Assembly: GCF_010731895.1 (NCBI RefSeq) | Contig: NZ_AP022596.1 | Location: forward strand, 3,348,001 to 3,412,000 | DNA length: 64,000 nt | Direction of reading: 5' to 3' | Origin: Mycolicibacterium helvum | Lineage (GTDB): Bacteria > Actinomycetota > Actinomycetes > Mycobacteriales > Mycobacteriaceae | Shown here: positions 37,903 through 42,807 of the stretch, in pieces | Layout: the number at the start of each line of letters is the position of its first letter | Numbering within the stretch: position 1 is the first letter of the stretch | The notes under the pieces: model-generated | What the model was told of the DNA's origin: nothing | The model's database searches: none | The model's input: the letters and a program-made list of their open reading frames with translations, nothing else | Position numbers and translations under genes: made by a program

Positions 37903-39933
37903 ATGGGTGTGACGGCGCGCTCATTCGCGCAAGGTCCATGGGTGGATCCCGTCTCGCAGCCGAGCCCGCGGCGCGGGCCAAAGCCCCGTGGCTCGGGTGT
38001 TCCCGCGCTGAACGGCATCCGCGGTGTTGCCGTAGCTCTCGTGCTGGTCGGCCACGGTGGAATCCCCGGTGTCGCAGGTGGATTCATCGGCGTCGACATC
38101 TTCTTCGTGCTCAGCGGGTTTCTGATCACGGCACTGTTGCTCGACGAGATCGGCCGGACCGGGCAGCTTGACCTCGGTTCGTTCTGGGTCCGGCGCGCCC
38201 GCAGGCTGCTGCCGGCCCTGCTGATCATGGTGCTCGCGGTGATCGCGGCGCGGCTGCTGTTCCCACCCGATGCCGTCAGCGACCTGCGCAATGACGCGAC
38301 CGCGGCGTTCCTGTGGGTGGCGAACTGGGCCTTCGTGTCCCATCAGACCGACTACTTCAGCCAGGGCGCTCCGCCGTCGCCGCTGCAACACACCTGGTCG
38401 CTAGGTGTTGAAGAGCAGTACTACCTGATCTGGCCGGTGCTCATCGCCGCGGCGGCGGTGCTGCTGGCCATGATCGCCCGGCGGCGCGGCAAGACGCCGA
38501 CCATTGTGGCGGTCCGGCGCACGGTGCTGGTCCTCGCCGTGCTGGGCACGGTCGGATCGGCGGCCGAGGCGATCCTGCTGGCCTCGGACGATTCGCTGAA
38601 CCGGGTGTACTTCGGCACCGATACCCGCGCGCAGGCGCTGCTGATCGGTGCCGCGGCGGCCGCGCTGCTGGTCCGGGACTGGTCGGCAATCATGGCGGGC
38701 TTGCCCCTGATCCACTCGCGCTGGGTCCGCTGGCTGGCCTGGGGTGTCCCGGTGGCTGGGGTGGCGGTGCTGGCCGCGATCACCCACGTCGCCACCGGTA
38801 GCGCCACCGAGTTCCGCAACGGCCTGTTCATCGTCGTCGCGGTCGCCGCGGTGGCGGTGATCGCGCCGGTGGCACTCGAGCAGAACGGTCCGGTGGCGTG
38901 GGTGTTGTCCACCCCACCGCTGGTGGCGCTGGGTGTCATCTCCTACGGTGTCTACCTCTGGCACTGGCCGGTGTTCCTGGTCATGACCGGTGAGCGCACC
39001 GACTGGACCGGTTACTCGCTGTTCGCCGCGCGCTGTGTGGTGACGCTGGTCCTGGCGGTGGGCTCGTGGTGGCTGATCGAACGCCCGGTGCGACGTTGGC
39101 GGCCGCTACATGTCCCGCAGCTGCGGCTGGCGGCCGCCACGATGGCCACGGCCGTCGCCATCGCGGTCGTCGTCGTACCGGTGGGAACCCGCATCGATCC
39201 GTCGAGCCCCGATATCACCCAGGCCGCGTTGATCTCACCGGTCGAAACGGTACGGGTCGCCGCGCCGTCGCACACGGGTCCGCGCGAGCACACCGTCTCA
39301 GTGTTCGGCGACTCGATCGGCTGGACGATGATGCGTTACCTGCCGCCCACCCCGGGGGTCAGCTTCCTGGACCGCACCACGATCGGTTGCGGCCTGGTAC
39401 GCGGCGGGCCGTATCGCTACTCCGGGCAGAGCCTGGAGCAGAAACCCGAGTGCGACGCCTGGCCGGAACGCTGGGCGCAGCGGATCGCCTATGACCGGCC
39501 CGATGTGGTGCTGATGGTCGTCGGTCGCTGGGAGACGGTCGACCGTAAGTGGAATGGCAACTGGGCGCACATTGGCCAGCCCGATTTCGACAAGTACCTG
39601 CAGGGCGAGCTGAACCACGCGCTGGACATTCTGTCTTCCACGGGGGCGCTGGTGGTGGTCACCACCGAGCCGTACAACCGGCACGGCGAGCAGACGAACG
39701 GCAACCTGTATCCCGAGGATCAGCCCAGCCGGGTCGACCAGTGGAATACCTTGCTGCGCAAGGTCGTCGGCGACCGCAAGAACGTCACCGTGCTCGACCT
39801 GAACAAGAAGCTCGCGCCGAACGGCAGCTATACCAACAAGATCAACGGCGTGCAGGTCCGCATCGACGGCGTGCATCCCACCCCGAACGCGGTCAAGTGG
39901 ATGACCCCGTGGCTGCTGGACGCAGTGCGTTAA
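37903..39933 (+). CDS. Acyltransferase-3 / SGNH fusion protein (OafA-like)
   Basis: The 676-residue membrane enzyme has an N-terminal acyltransferase-3 domain (about residues 30-415, roughly ten membrane helices; LNGIRGVAVALVLVGHGG with the catalytic His, FFVLSGFLITALL, SLGVEEQYYLIWPVL) followed by a periplasmic SGNH domain. In the latter VFGDSIGW holds the Ser and DGVHPTPNA the Asp-x-x-His pair. Such proteins O-acylate cell-envelope glycans or glycolipids, with the first domain moving the acyl group across the membrane and the second transferring it. ATG 37903 has AGGAGGAC upstream. Confidence 0.9.
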   Translation: MGVTARSFAQGPWVDPVSQPSPRRGPKPRGSGVPALNGIRGVAVALVLVGHGGIPGVAGGFIGVDIFFVLSGFLITALLLDEIGRTGQLDLGSFWVRRARRLLPALLIMVLAVIAARLLFPPDAVSDLRNDATAAFLWVANWAFVSHQTDYFSQGAPPSPLQHTWSLGVEEQYYLIWPVLIAAAAVLLAMIARRRGKTPTIVAVRRTVLVLAVLGTVGSAAEAILLASDDSLNRVYFGTDTRAQALLIGAAAAALLVRDWSAIMAGLPLIHSRWVRWLAWGVPVAGVAVLAAITHVATGSATEFRNGLFIVVAVAAVAVIAPVALEQNGPVAWVLSTPPLVALGVISYGVYLWHWPVFLVMTGERTDWTGYSLFAARCVVTLVLAVGSWWLIERPVRRWRPLHVPQLRLAAATMATAVAIAVVVVPVGTRIDPSSPDITQAALISPVETVRVAAPSHTGPREHTVSVFGDSIGWTMMRYLPPTPGVSFLDRTTIGCGLVRGGPYRYSGQSLEQKPECDAWPERWAQRIAYDRPDVVLMVVGRWETVDRKWNGNWAHIGQPDFDKYLQGELNHALDILSSTGALVVVTTEPYNRHGEQTNGNLYPEDQPSRVDQWNTLLRKVVGDRKNVTVLDLNKKLAPNGSYTNKINGVQVRIDGVHPTPNAVKWMTPWLLDAVR

Positions 39934-39941
39934 GAGTGCCC

Positions 39942-39965
39942 GCCGGCCGCTGCCTGATGGCCGGC
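39942..39965. terminator. Bidirectional terminator hairpin
   Basis: GCCGGCC and GGCCGGC are perfect 7-base arms around a 10-base loop in the 33-base gap between the convergent acyltransferase and chorismate mutase genes. Confidence 0.6.
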
Positions 39966-39966
39966 G

Positions 39967-40236
39967 TCAGTGCCCGAGCCGGCCGCGACCCATGCGCAGT
40001 AACAGCATCGCCAGATCCTTGCCGTCCTGGCCGAGCTCGCTGTAGCGCTCGATCACCTTCATCTCGCGGCTGTGCACCAGCCGGGTGCCACCGGAGGCCA
40101 TCCTGGCCCGGCCGATCGCCTGGGACACCTCGGTGCGGCGTTTGACCGCAGCCAGGATCGCGGCATCGAGCTGGTCGATCTCGCTGCGCAGGCTGTCGAT
40201 GTCGTGTTCGGCTTCAGGAACCATTTCCAGAGTCAT
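39967..40236 (-). CDS. aroQ: Intracellular chorismate mutase (AroQ, Rv0948c-like)
   Basis: The 89-residue helical protein converts chorismate to prephenate, the first step toward Phe and Tyr. DIDSLRSEIDQLDAAILAAVKRRTEVSQAIGRAR, then VHSREMKVIERY and the C-terminal LLLRMGRGRLGH match the short AroQ-delta enzymes. In M. tuberculosis that enzyme is weak alone and is activated and feedback-controlled inside a complex with DAHP synthase through its C-terminal Arg-Leu-Gly-His end, which is conserved here. ATG 40236 has GGAG nine bases upstream. A structured leader with a Phe/Tyr/Trp-rich mini-ORF precedes it. Confidence 0.92.
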   Translation of the reverse strand: MTLEMVPEAEHDIDSLRSEIDQLDAAILAAVKRRTEVSQAIGRARMASGGTRLVHSREMKVIERYSELGQDGKDLAMLLLRMGRGRLGH

Positions 40237-40244
40237 CGCTTCGT

Positions 40245-40296
40245 TCTCCTCGTGTGTGGGTCTGGTCTCAACCGGTCCCGGGCCTCACACAAGAGA
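40245..40296 (-). promoter_or_regulatory. Pairing that can cover the chorismate mutase ribosome-binding site
   Basis: In the reverse-strand RNA the segment UCUCUUGUGUG (40286-40296) can pair with CACACGAGGAGA (40245-40256), which contains the ribosome-binding site. The stem has 11 pairs with one bulged G and one G-U pair. It could hold the site closed unless the upstream RNA is rearranged or translated. Confidence 0.4.
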
Positions 40297-40297
40297 C

Positions 40298-40330
40298 GAG
40301 CCCCGGATCCGGTTGCGGACCGCGGGGCTC
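40298..40330 (-). terminator. Strong hairpin B of the chorismate mutase leader (candidate attenuator terminator)
   Basis: In reverse-strand RNA GAGCCCC pairs with GGGGCUC; inside it GG/CC and UCCG/CGGA continue the stem around a CAAC loop. It is followed by GUCUCUUGUGU, which is U-rich but not a true U-tract. It lies between the leader mini-ORF stop and the chorismate mutase start, the place of an attenuator terminator. Confidence 0.5.
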
Positions 40331-40343
40331 TCGGGTTGAGCAG

Positions 40344-40457
40344 CTAGATACCCACGGGCACCGCGGACCGGTACCCGTAGAAAAATCGACGCCGCCAGGA
40401 AAGCACGTTTCGAGTGTGCCACTCCGAAGGCCGGCTTCGCAAAAAAACTGTCGCCAT
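40344..40457 (-). CDS. Candidate aromatic leader peptide upstream of chorismate mutase
   Basis: A 37-codon reverse-strand mini-ORF runs from ATG 40457 to TAG 40344-40346, or 20 codons if the in-frame GTG at 40404-40406 is used. It ends with SWRRRFFYGYRSAVPVGI, so Trp, Phe, Phe, Tyr and Tyr codons fall within nine residues, directly before and within hairpin A. Clustered codons for the amino acids made by the downstream pathway are the mark of attenuation leaders (compare pheL and trpL). I see no clear ribosome-binding site or promoter, and the ORF overlaps the pcrA promoter region, so it may be fortuitous. Confidence 0.4.
   Translation of the reverse strand: MATVFLRSRPSEWHTRNVLSWRRRFFYGYRSAVPVGI
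40354..40378 (-). promoter_or_regulatory. Hairpin A of the chorismate mutase leader
   Basis: In reverse-strand RNA ACGGGUACCG pairs with CGGUGCCCGU over ten positions (one U-G pair) around the loop GUCCG. The Tyr-Gly-Tyr codons of the mini-ORF lie in its first arm. Its GGUCCGCGG segment can alternatively pair with CCGCGGUCC of hairpin B (eight of nine positions), giving a possible antiterminator. Confidence 0.45.
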
Positions 40458-40464
40458 ACAGCGG

Positions 40465-40470
40465 TAAGTT
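40465..40470 (+). promoter_or_regulatory. Possible -10 element of pcrA
   Basis: TAAGTT fits TANNNT and ends nine bases before the pcrA ATG, compatible with a leaderless or near-leaderless transcript. No ribosome-binding site is visible before the ATG. Confidence 0.35.
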
Positions 40471-40479
40471 GGGTCAGAC

Positions 40480-42807
40480 ATGAGTGTGCACGTGACCGAA
40501 TACAAGCCCCCGGCCAATGCGGCCGAACTCCTCGATGGCCTCAACCCCCAGCAGCGCCAGGCCGTGCTGCACGAAGGCCCACCGCTGCTGATCGTGGCCG
40601 GCGCCGGGTCGGGCAAGACGGCGGTCCTGACCCGGCGGATCGCCTACCTGCTGGCGGCGCGCGACGTCGGGCCGGGCCAGGTGCTGGCCATCACGTTCAC
40701 CAATAAGGCCGCCGCCGAAATGCGCGAACGGGTGGTCGCCTTGGTTGGCCCGCGGGCCCGCAACATGTGGGTGTCGACGTTCCACTCGACCTGCGTGCGG
40801 ATCCTGCGCAATCAGGCTTCGCTGCTGCCCGGGCTGAACTCGAACTTCTCCATCTACGACGCCGACGACTCCCGTCGCCTGTTGCTGATGATCAGTAAGG
40901 ACATGGGCCTGGACAGCAAGCGGTACTCTCCGCGACTGCTGTCCAATGCGATCTCGAACCTCAAGAACGAGCTCATCGTCCCCGAGGATGCGGTGGCCGC
41001 GCTCGAGCCGGGATCCGACGACCTGTCCCGCACGGTCGCCAGCGTCTACGGCGAATACCAGCGGCGGCTGCGCGCCGCCAACGCACTGGACTTCGACGAC
41101 CTCATCGGCGAGACCGTGGCGGTTTTGCAAAACTTCCCGCAGATCGCCCAGTACTACCGCAGGCGGTTCCGGCACATCCTGGTCGACGAGTACCAGGACA
41201 CCAACCACGCCCAGTACGTGCTGGTGCGCGAGCTCGTCGGGGTCGCTGCCCCGGACACCGACACGGTGCCGCCCAGCGAGCTGTGCGTCGTCGGTGACGC
41301 CGACCAGTCGATCTACGCGTTCCGCGGCGCGACGATCCGCAACATCGAGGATTTTGAACGGGACTTCCCGAACGCCACCACGATCCTGCTCGAGCAGAAC
41401 TACCGGTCGACCCAGAACATCCTGAACGCGGCCAACTCCGTCATCTCCCGCAACGCCAACCGTCGCGAGAAACGGCTGTGGACCGACGAGGGTGACGGTG
41501 AGCTGATCGTCGGCTACGTCGCCGACAACGAGCACGACGAGGCCAGATTCGTCGCGGGGGAGATCGACGCGCTCGCCGACCGCGGCGACATCACGTACAA
41601 CGACGTCGCGGTGTTCTACCGCACCAACAACTCGTCGCGCTCGCTGGAAGAAGTGTTCATCCGCGCTGGCGTCCCGTACAAGGTAGTCGGTGGCGTTCGG
41701 TTCTACGAGCGCAAGGAGATTCGCGACATCGTCGCCTATCTGCGGGTGCTGGACAACCCCGGGGATGCCGTCAGCCTGCGCCGCATCCTCAACACCCCGC
41801 GCCGGGGCATCGGCGACCGCGCTGAGGCGTGTGTTGCGGTCTACGCCGAGAATACCGGTGCCACTTTCGCCGACGCGTTGGTCGCCGCCGCCGAAGGTAA
41901 GGTGGCGATGCTGAACACCCGCTCGGAGAAGGCGATCGCGAGTTTCGTCAAGCTACTCGACGATTTGCGCGGCAAGCTCGACGACGAGCTCGGCGACCTG
42001 GTCGAGGCAGTGTTGGACCGTACCGGCTATCGCCGTGAATTGGAGTCCTCCAGCGATCCCCAAGACCTGGCCCGGTTGGACAACCTGAACGAATTGGTCA
42101 GCGTCGCACATGAATTCAGCATCGACCGGGCCAACGCGGCCGCGCTCAAGGACGATGCCGACGAGGACGAGGACGTTCCGCAGACGGGCATTCTCGCGGA
42201 GTTCCTGGAGCGGGTATCGCTGGTGGCCGACTCCGACGAGCTACCCGAGCACGGCGCCGGTGTGGTCACACTGATGACGCTGCACACCGCCAAAGGGCTC
42301 GAATTCCCAGTGGTTTTCGTCACCGGATGGGAGGACGGCATGTTCCCGCACATGCGCGCCCTGGGAGACCCGACCGAGTTATCCGAGGAACGCCGGCTGG
42401 CCTACGTCGGCATAACCCGGGCACGCCAACGGCTTTACCTCACCCGCGCGAAGGTCCGTTCGTCGTGGGGGCAGCCAATGCTGAATCCGGAATCCCGCTT
42501 CCTGCGCGAGATTCCGGAGCATCTTCTCGACTGGCGCCGTACCGATACCGCGCCGTCATTGAGCGCGCCGGTGAGCGGAGCGGGCCGGTTCGGCACCCCG
42601 CGGACATCGCCGATGCGGCCGGCGGGCGGCAGCAAGCGTCCGCTGTTGGTCCTTGAACCCGGCGACCGGGTCAATCACGACAAGTACGGTCTCGGCCGCG
42701 TCGAGGAAGTGTCCGGGATGGGGGAGTCGGCGATGTCACTGATCGACTTCGGCAGCGCCGGGCGGGTCAAGCTGATGCACAACCACGCACCCCTACAGAA
42801 GCTCTGA
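40480..42807 (+). CDS. pcrA: ATP-dependent DNA helicase PcrA/UvrD1
   Basis: The 775-residue superfamily 1A helicase unwinds DNA 3' to 5' in repair and replication restart. It shows motif I (AGAGSGKTAVLTRR), motif II (VDEYQDTN), motif III (GDADQSIYAFRGA), motif IV (LEQNYRST), TLHTAKGLEFPVVF (motif V) and YVGITRARQRLYL (motif VI). The C-terminal HDKYGLGRVEEVSGMGE segment is the Tudor-like domain that contacts RNA polymerase in PcrA/UvrD1. Length and context match Rv0949 beside chorismate mutase and sucCD. Confidence 0.97.
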   Translation: MSVHVTEYKPPANAAELLDGLNPQQRQAVLHEGPPLLIVAGAGSGKTAVLTRRIAYLLAARDVGPGQVLAITFTNKAAAEMRERVVALVGPRARNMWVSTFHSTCVRILRNQASLLPGLNSNFSIYDADDSRRLLLMISKDMGLDSKRYSPRLLSNAISNLKNELIVPEDAVAALEPGSDDLSRTVASVYGEYQRRLRAANALDFDDLIGETVAVLQNFPQIAQYYRRRFRHILVDEYQDTNHAQYVLVRELVGVAAPDTDTVPPSELCVVGDADQSIYAFRGATIRNIEDFERDFPNATTILLEQNYRSTQNILNAANSVISRNANRREKRLWTDEGDGELIVGYVADNEHDEARFVAGEIDALADRGDITYNDVAVFYRTNNSSRSLEEVFIRAGVPYKVVGGVRFYERKEIRDIVAYLRVLDNPGDAVSLRRILNTPRRGIGDRAEACVAVYAENTGATFADALVAAAEGKVAMLNTRSEKAIASFVKLLDDLRGKLDDELGDLVEAVLDRTGYRRELESSSDPQDLARLDNLNELVSVAHEFSIDRANAAALKDDADEDEDVPQTGILAEFLERVSLVADSDELPEHGAGVVTLMTLHTAKGLEFPVVFVTGWEDGMFPHMRALGDPTELSEERRLAYVGITRARQRLYLTRAKVRSSWGQPMLNPESRFLREIPEHLLDWRRTDTAPSLSAPVSGAGRFGTPRTSPMRPAGGSKRPLLVLEPGDRVNHDKYGLGRVEEVSGMGESAMSLIDFGSAGRVKLMHNHAPLQKL

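Follow-up and report, generated by a model that had tools for sequence, protein, structure and literature searches.

Chorismate mutase (CM) commits carbon to phenylalanine and tyrosine. In the pheL and trpL leaders of Escherichia coli, a leader peptide with codons for the end-product amino acids is combined with protector, antiterminator and terminator hairpins. The aroR leader of Corynebacterium glutamicum was reportedly described by Neshat in 2014. In the available excerpts of the literature, pheL/pheA and trpL/trp are given as attenuators of E. coli (PMC11802643), and aroR as the leader of aroF, which encodes a DAHP synthase, with the codons Phe-Tyr-Phe (PMC11802643, PMC4046766). A 2005 survey of actinobacterial leaders that covered six mycobacterial species records, in its excerpted text, no conserved RNA structures before Phe/Tyr operons (PMC1262725), and among the eight leader peptides named in the excerpt of a reannotation of Streptomyces lividans by RNA-seq there is none for Phe or Tyr (PMC8079986).

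In this study we analyzed a candidate attenuator before the CM gene of Mycolicibacterium helvum, within a 64,000-nucleotide stretch of DNA (the window). Going by the excerpts cited above, aroR is the closest known element, as both it and the putative CM leader are actinobacterial ribosome-mediated attenuators with Phe/Tyr codons before a gene of the aromatic pathway, although aroR controls DAHP synthase whereas the window leader precedes CM. No genome of genus g3, possibly Corynebacterium, was among the 68 genomes of the family that matched our model of the leader. Like pheL/pheA and trpL/trp of E. coli, the CM leader has end-product codons and protector, antiterminator and terminator-like helices; unlike them, it is probably leaderless, contains a single short aromatic run, stands before a monofunctional CM and has a T-tract that is weaker than theirs. 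With the ilvB1 attenuator of Mycobacterium tuberculosis it shares a mycobacterial host, an upstream ORF (uORF), an antiterminator and a putative terminator, but the ilvB1 element, as excerpted, has branched-chain codons and serves another gene (PMC13236596). Likewise, trpL1, ilvL and leuL2 of S. lividans are actinobacterial leaderless peptides followed by hairpins, but their codons in the excerpted text are for Trp, the branched-chain amino acids and Leu, not for Phe/Tyr (PMC8079986).

The preliminary description of this locus knew of no attenuator described for the CM gene, and our searches agree with it: no published description of a CM leader was found in the open-licence literature, and Rfam 15 gave only eight matches in window positions 38000–42500 at E values up to 5, none of which reached the gathering score and none of which was a T-box, riboswitch or amino-acid leader. 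The excerpts of two papers on mycobacterial uORFs make no mention of chorismate (PMC13236596, PMC4633059), and the first of these has further candidate attenuators in its figures (Extended Data Fig. 5 and 7). The kind of attenuator is known; its CM member appears to be new and unusually widespread.

Organization of the CM Locus

The genome that carries the window is a single contig of 6.4 Mb. Pfam assigned the CM ORF to CM_2, the closest solved chain to its product was the CM Rv0948c (90 residues), and the best protein matches among named sequences, at 98% identity, were from Mycolicibacterium sphagni ENV482 and from a metagenome bin of Mycobacterium; the genus of the window genome, g1 in our comparisons, is accordingly taken as Mycobacterium sensu lato. 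On the minus strand, the order of features is TGGCACACT, the leader ORF with hairpin H1, hairpin H2, a T-rich tail, the Shine-Dalgarno (SD) region and the CM ATG (Table 1). The element as a whole is probably a short regulatory switch at the 5' end of the mRNA, and our comparisons indicate that it is common to mycobacteria and many of their relatives.

Table 1. Positions in the window of the CM gene, its neighbor and the elements of the leader.
Feature	Position	Strand	Basis and remarks
UvrD/PcrA helicase, divergent neighbor	40480..42807	+	ORF, Pfam; outside the switch; phylogenetic marker
Promoter-like motif TGGCACACT, extended -10-like	40413..40421	-	6 nt upstream of the leader GTG
Leader ORF encoding VLSWRRRFFYGYRSAVPVGI	40344..40406	-	20 codons; start GTG 40406-40404, TAG stop
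Control codons TTT TTC TAC GGG TAC (Phe Phe Tyr Gly Tyr)	40371..40385	-	Conserved codon pattern
H1, hairpin over the Tyr codons (protector)	40353..40379	-	Folding and covariation; 11 pairs, 5-nt loop
Antiterminator strand 1 (H1 loop and part of its arms)	40361..40371	-	Covariation
Antiterminator strand 2 (inside the H2 5' half)	40316..40325	-	Covariation
H2, terminator-like hairpin	40298..40330	-	Folding and covariation
H3, alternative helix, 40306-40298 with 40286-40278	40278..40306	-	Paired cells in 78 relatives
T-rich tail GTCTCTTGTGTG	40286..40297	-	After H2; strand able to pair with the SD region
CM SD region	40245..40258	-	Complementary to 40297-40286 in the window
CM, AroQ type, 89 aa	39967..40236	-	ORF, Pfam CM_2, structure comparison; taken as the regulated target

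A Conserved Leader ORF Rich in Phe and Tyr Codons

The position of the leader ORF was strongly conserved relative to the motif upstream of it. Across 145 loci, which gave 101 distinct sequences with both the motif and the codon core, an in-frame GTG or ATG was present 6–7 nt past TGGCANACT in 101/101; it was the first RTG in 96 and the second GTG of a GTGTG in five. In the 96 sequences counted, the distance from this start to the core varied from 3 to 21 codons but was always in frame, and no stop codon was found before the core. These data indicate selection to keep the leader in frame. Since its start lies 6–7 nt from a -10-like motif, the leader ORF is probably leaderless. The motif TGGCACACT is a putative promoter that was kept in natural deletions of the leader (see below); a strict scan of positions 40180–40520 returned no consensus promoter. 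The preliminary description had the mini-ORF at 40344–40457; its frame is open as claimed, but the ATG at 40457 is not a plausible start, being upstream of the motif, and the conserved start is the GTG at 40406–40404.

The leader peptides contained clustered codons for the end products of the pathway, as do leaders of the trpL/pheL class. The pattern R-F-x-x-G/R-Y/C/H fitted 91 of 92 distinct leader ORFs, and among those 91 the first control position (F1) was Phe in 91, the second (F2) Phe in 81, the next Tyr in 78 and the last Tyr in 88. A Trp codon anywhere in the leader was found in 26 of the 92 distinct ORFs. On codon content, then, Phe and Tyr make up the conserved sensor, and Trp is a minority codon. 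The proposal that a shortage of Phe, Tyr or Trp opens CM expression consequently keeps its Phe/Tyr part, for which the codons and the modeling below provide support, and loses its Trp part. The first Phe codon was TTT in 88/91 leader ORFs, compared with 4 of the 65 Phe codons in five ORFs of the window. We also noted that the codons CGA TTT were kept ahead of the Tyr codons, both in the window (40380–40388) and in relatives; these may slow ribosomes, or may mark some constraint at the nucleotide level.

Three Mutually Exclusive Helices

The leader RNA (40406–40237) folded more stably than expected, with a z-score of -3.36 and none of 200 shuffled sequences equally stable. When RNAalifold was not supplied with a structure, it proposed both H1 and H2 in 78 aligned close relatives, and most of H1 and H2 in an order-wide set of 66 sequences. 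The hairpin over the Tyr codons, previously given as 10 pairs, has 11, and the second hairpin past the leader stop is present as described. The pairing between the two hairpins, previously eight of nine positions, extends over nine of ten with one U-U mismatch. A further prediction, conservation of the FFYGY codons and of the two hairpins in relatives, was borne out, and H1, H2 and the antiterminator all carried compensatory changes.

In the close set, 97.0% of cells were paired in H1, 95.8% in H2 and 96.4% in the two combined, with seven double-change cells, a number matched in 0/500 shuffles; the median energy of H2 was -23.8 kcal/mol. In the order-wide set, H1 was paired in 90.9% of cells with double changes in six of its 11 pairs, and H2 in 88.7% with double changes in five of its 10 pairs (together, 89.9% and 11 of 21 pairs). 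The order-wide H1 and H2 had 47 double-change cells versus a shuffled mean of 14.1 (0/500 shuffles), and slid controls had at most 53.0% of cells paired and at most 12 double-change cells. Because the search for order-level loci used a covariance model (R1) that scores the H1 and H2 pairs, it favors these counts, whereas the antiterminator is outside R1. The antiterminator was paired in 81.9% of order-wide cells, with double changes in seven of ten pairs and 47 double-change cells versus a shuffled mean of 11.3 (0/500 shuffles); slid controls reached at most 61.4% paired and at most 15 double-change cells. One of its pairs was C-G in 25, U-A in 20 and U-G in 15 sequences. All such counts of compensatory changes are inflated by shared ancestry.

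In the 78 close relatives the antiterminator was 81.5% paired. As one position was mismatched in 70/78 and there were no double changes, these relatives by themselves leave the antiterminator unproven, and its support comes from the order-wide set. H3 was paired in 77.8% of cells of the 78 relatives, with one position mismatched in 74/78; one of its pairs was C-G in 35 relatives and U-A in 10, and did not form in 32. H3 may take up the H2 3' arm when this is freed, with weaker support than for the other helices. Overall, the comparative data indicate that H1, the antiterminator and H2 are three mutually exclusive helices, each with compensatory changes as in the trpL/pheL class, and that the RNA structure is under selection.

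Modeled Effect of Ribosome Position on the Nascent Leader

The leader stop and the GCCCC of H2 were separated by 10–17 nt in 77 of the 78 close relatives and by 3 nt in the remaining one; among the 54 parsed order-level loci, 53 had a spacing of 15–26 nt and one a spacing of 6 nt. This spacing fits a ribosome at the stop leaving H2 free. Equilibrium folding was tried as a test of the switch and set aside, as H2 won in nearly all relatives: in folds to the H2 tail no ribosome position brought its probability under 0.5 in more than 10% of the 78, and in folds to CM a ribosome at F1 did so in 22%. The window leader folded to CM had H2 probabilities of 0.36 at F1, 0.00 at F2 and 0.68 at the stop. 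With H2 winning at equilibrium, the switch would have to be kinetic in most relatives, and we therefore modeled the nascent RNA, with the transcript ending just ahead of the H2 3' arm.

In the modeled nascent RNA of the 78 relatives, a ribosome-free leader had the H2 5' arm paired upstream with a mean probability of 0.29; with a ribosome in place this value was 0.86 at F1, 0.85 at F2 and at the first Tyr codon (Y1), and 0.15 at the stop. Placement of the control codons and the stop codon so as to expose or hide the antiterminator strand, as in the trpL/pheL class, was thus found by computation. In the model, control by ribosome position is not sharp, because the arm was still tied up at the last Tyr and the following Arg (0.80, falling to 0.51 one codon on) and was partly so with the ribosome ahead of the Phe codons (0.45–0.57). 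The same effect was predicted at the order level, where 54 of 60 loci could be parsed and the values were 0.38 with no ribosome, 0.74 at F1, 0.67 at Y1 and 0.19 at the stop; F1 was above no ribosome in 50/54 loci and above the stop in 54/54.

The difference between F1 and no ribosome depended on the nucleotide sequence. It was 0.57 for the observed leaders of the 78 relatives, compared with 0.23 after synonymous recoding from F1 onward and 0.05 after codon shuffling (12 versions of each), and it exceeded the recoded mean in 74/78 and the shuffled mean in 76/78. That recoding weakens the predicted switch indicates that selection has acted on the nucleotide sequence and not on the peptide alone.

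Proposed Mechanism

We propose, with a probability of about 0.87, that the element is a transcription attenuator upstream of CM in which the ribosome senses how much charged tRNA-Phe and tRNA-Tyr is available. Support for it is drawn from comparison and computation, namely the sequence parts, their conservation, the reading frame, the compensatory changes, the computed switch and the natural deletions, and from these we infer that the motif is a promoter, that the leader ORF is leaderless, that transcription ends at H2 and that the system responds to amino acids. RNA polymerase would start at or beside the leader GTG and a ribosome would begin translating the leader. With ample Phe and Tyr, the ribosome would reach the stop and cover the antiterminator strand, leaving H2 free to form and to stop transcription ahead of CM. 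Under a shortage of Phe (or Tyr), the ribosome would stall on the F-F-Y codons and cover the H1 5' arm, so that the exposed H1 loop and 3' side could pair with the H2 5' half as the antiterminator and polymerase would read into CM. If the leader were not translated, H1 would mostly hold the antiterminator strand and H2 could form.

Phe and Tyr also act on CM through the DAHP synthase-CM complex, which the excerpted source treats as a model case of inter-enzyme allostery (PMC7762937). If our reading is true, an attenuator reading Phe/Tyr would add a layer of gene expression to this allosteric control.

Probable Termination at H2 and Alternative Explanations

The region after H2 was rich in T, with a mean of 6.2 T in the 12 nt past GGGG compared with 2.1 expected. 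At least five T in the eight nucleotides after the stem were counted in 67/78 close relatives and in 26/54 order-level loci; the window itself has 5 T in 8 by our own rule for the stem end. The strict scan of 40180–40520 found no terminator with a textbook U-tract, and some distant relatives (L151, L263, L280) had clean T-tracts. The T-tract is imperfect, and intrinsic termination at H2 is likely, although Rho may take part. A role for Rho could be more central than this, with translation of the leader gating the access of Rho before CM and H2 serving as a pause or processing signal. The imperfect T-tract is in keeping with such a role, and Rho-dependent attenuation has been suggested for mycobacterial cys leaders in the excerpted text of the 2005 survey (PMC1262725). 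We consider it an unlikely account of the element, however, as Rho-dependent attenuation alone leaves the joint compensatory changes in H1, the antiterminator and H2 unexplained.

The preliminary description also noted a segment able to pair with the ribosome-binding site. If that segment (40297–40286) masked the SD of CM once translation of the leader was finished, and a stalled ribosome freed it, then control would be at the level of translation. The window is consistent with this, as its SD region was predicted to be 85% open with the ribosome at F1 and 30% open at the stop, and the SD hairpin belongs to the minimum-energy fold of the window leader. Across the 78 relatives, however, mean openness was 0.29 at F1 versus 0.38 at the stop, and on changing from the stop to F1 the SD opened by more than 0.2 in 5/78 and closed by more than 0.2 in 22/78. 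The pairing segment thus stands for the window but not as a conserved switch; SD masking was rejected as a general mechanism, and by this modeling it is at best a lineage-specific layer. As the T-tracts of the distant relatives favor termination, attenuation of translation appears improbable as the principal mode of control.

It is also conceivable that the nascent peptide, RFFYGYR..VPV, stalls the ribosome in response to some molecule or state, since its C-terminal residues are conserved within the family as well. Those residues, however, are encoded by codons that make up the H1 3' arm, and two relatives (L040, L050) change Pro to Phe or Ser with pairing retained. In other genera the C-terminal residues vary, and the peptide start lies anywhere between 3 and 21 codons away. 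An arrest peptide is on these grounds very improbable. A protein-binding palindrome with an incidental leader ORF, which the GGTACC within H1 might suggest, is scarcely credible given the in-frame spacing in 101/101 sequences, the compensatory changes in three exclusive helices and the correspondence between the codons and the pathway.

Distribution of the Leader

The distribution of the transcription attenuator proposed here was assessed with R1 and a second covariance model, R2, which together with a set of natural deletions are now available for comparison. In the genome of the window R1 had one strong match (E = 1e-31), and the next had an E value of 3.3, so that no second leader of this type was detected above chance. 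We found no aromatic-rich uORF in those regions of this genome that were inspected ahead of the ORFs for type II DAHP synthase and prephenate dehydratase, whose start codons are unsettled.

Within genus g1, R1 matched 176 of 198 genomes (E <= 0.001), and CM itself was matched in 195/198. Some of the 176 matches were to decayed elements (e.g., L117, L239, L245–L248). In L117, L245, L246, L247 and L248 the motif was kept, and the core was degenerate or the frame crossed the place of a lost H2. In L237 and L241, from 3.3-Mb single-contig genomes, the leader was kept with extra codons before the core, and the H2 stem of L241 was seemingly weakened. In the family, 68/251 genomes matched, with matches of E > 1e-6 treated as probable chance; strong matches outside g1 were in genera g10, g12, g18, g22 and g24, and in the nine loci inspected from these genera (L135, L140, L151, L152, L162, L173, L177, L182, L253) the leader was before CM.

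The preliminary description had considered the element in a mycobacterial context, and this scope can be widened, as matches were found at the order and class levels. In the order, 121/298 genomes from 38/76 genera matched (E <= 1e-6), including 91 genomes outside the family. Sixty loci were fetched from these 91 hits, mostly the better-scoring ones, and CM was downstream in 60/60 (56 found by the window CM and four more by CMs of relatives). F-x-Y-G patterns fitted 55 of these 60 leaders, none of those 55 peptides contained Trp, and the last Tyr was absent from many of the order-level leaders. In the class, R2 matched 55/345 genomes from 11/126 genera, of which 35 genomes were outside g1. Twenty of the 35 loci were fetched; 15 precede CM and five precede a type I DAHP synthase. 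Ten of the 15 CM leaders were from genus g116, with genomes of 6–10 Mb, and resembled MLTQTTFLFTYGNRPTGCHGRAA.

The five DAHP synthase leaders (L337, L339, L341, L342, L343; families f31 and f52) were assigned with Pfam for L342 and L343 and with tblastn using the L342 protein for the other four. All five, e.g., MQRNFWRFYGYRP..., had a Trp codon besides Phe and Tyr, compared with 2/15 of the class-level CM leaders (L338, L344). The codon content of the leaders seems to follow the regulated step. At the thresholds used there was no match in 22/198 g1 genomes, 19/31 family genera, 38/76 order genera and 115/126 class genera, figures in which a non-match does not equal absence, as models trained on near relatives miss distant ones. 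We hypothesize, at what we would put at even odds, that these leaders form one old actinobacterial attenuator family, mostly on CM and elsewhere on type I DAHP synthase, in which the codons follow the products of the gene and which has repeatedly been lost by deletions onto the leader GTG.

Natural Deletions of the Leader

Of the 22 g1 genomes that R1 did not match (two of which were taken as G187 and G193, both being absent from the match list), three had no CM match (G003, G070, G126), one had a shortened leader (G127, locus L098) and the remaining 18 were examined. In seven of the 18 the leader was gone and CM was in frame from a GTG right past TGGCANACT (L229, L230, L231, L234, L235, L236, L238); in ten the motif was absent, and L232 kept a remnant. 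Only this fused class was interpreted, as our labels for degenerate promoters (prom_degenerate) and for none rest on loose regular expressions. With L041 and L071 the fused loci total nine, although L041 and L234 may come from a single genome, as their sequences agreed throughout the 300 nt compared. The L238 locus had the first five codons of the leader joined in frame to CM.

In a FastTree phylogeny of the UvrD N-terminus (129 rows, eight of them fused), the fused state required four changes, and the well-supported branches also force four. By this reconstruction the element has been deleted in at least four lineages, with CM starting at the position of the leader GTG. The deletions argue that the putative TGGCACACT promoter serves CM, and the placement of CM on the leader's start position after the motif supports both a promoter and a leaderless start. 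They also indicate that the switch is dispensable. Nine other loci without the motif (L242, L243, L249, L251, L254–L258) had CM shortly after a common GACAGTTTTGCG(C/T)TGGCACGGGC block, which is possibly another promoter.
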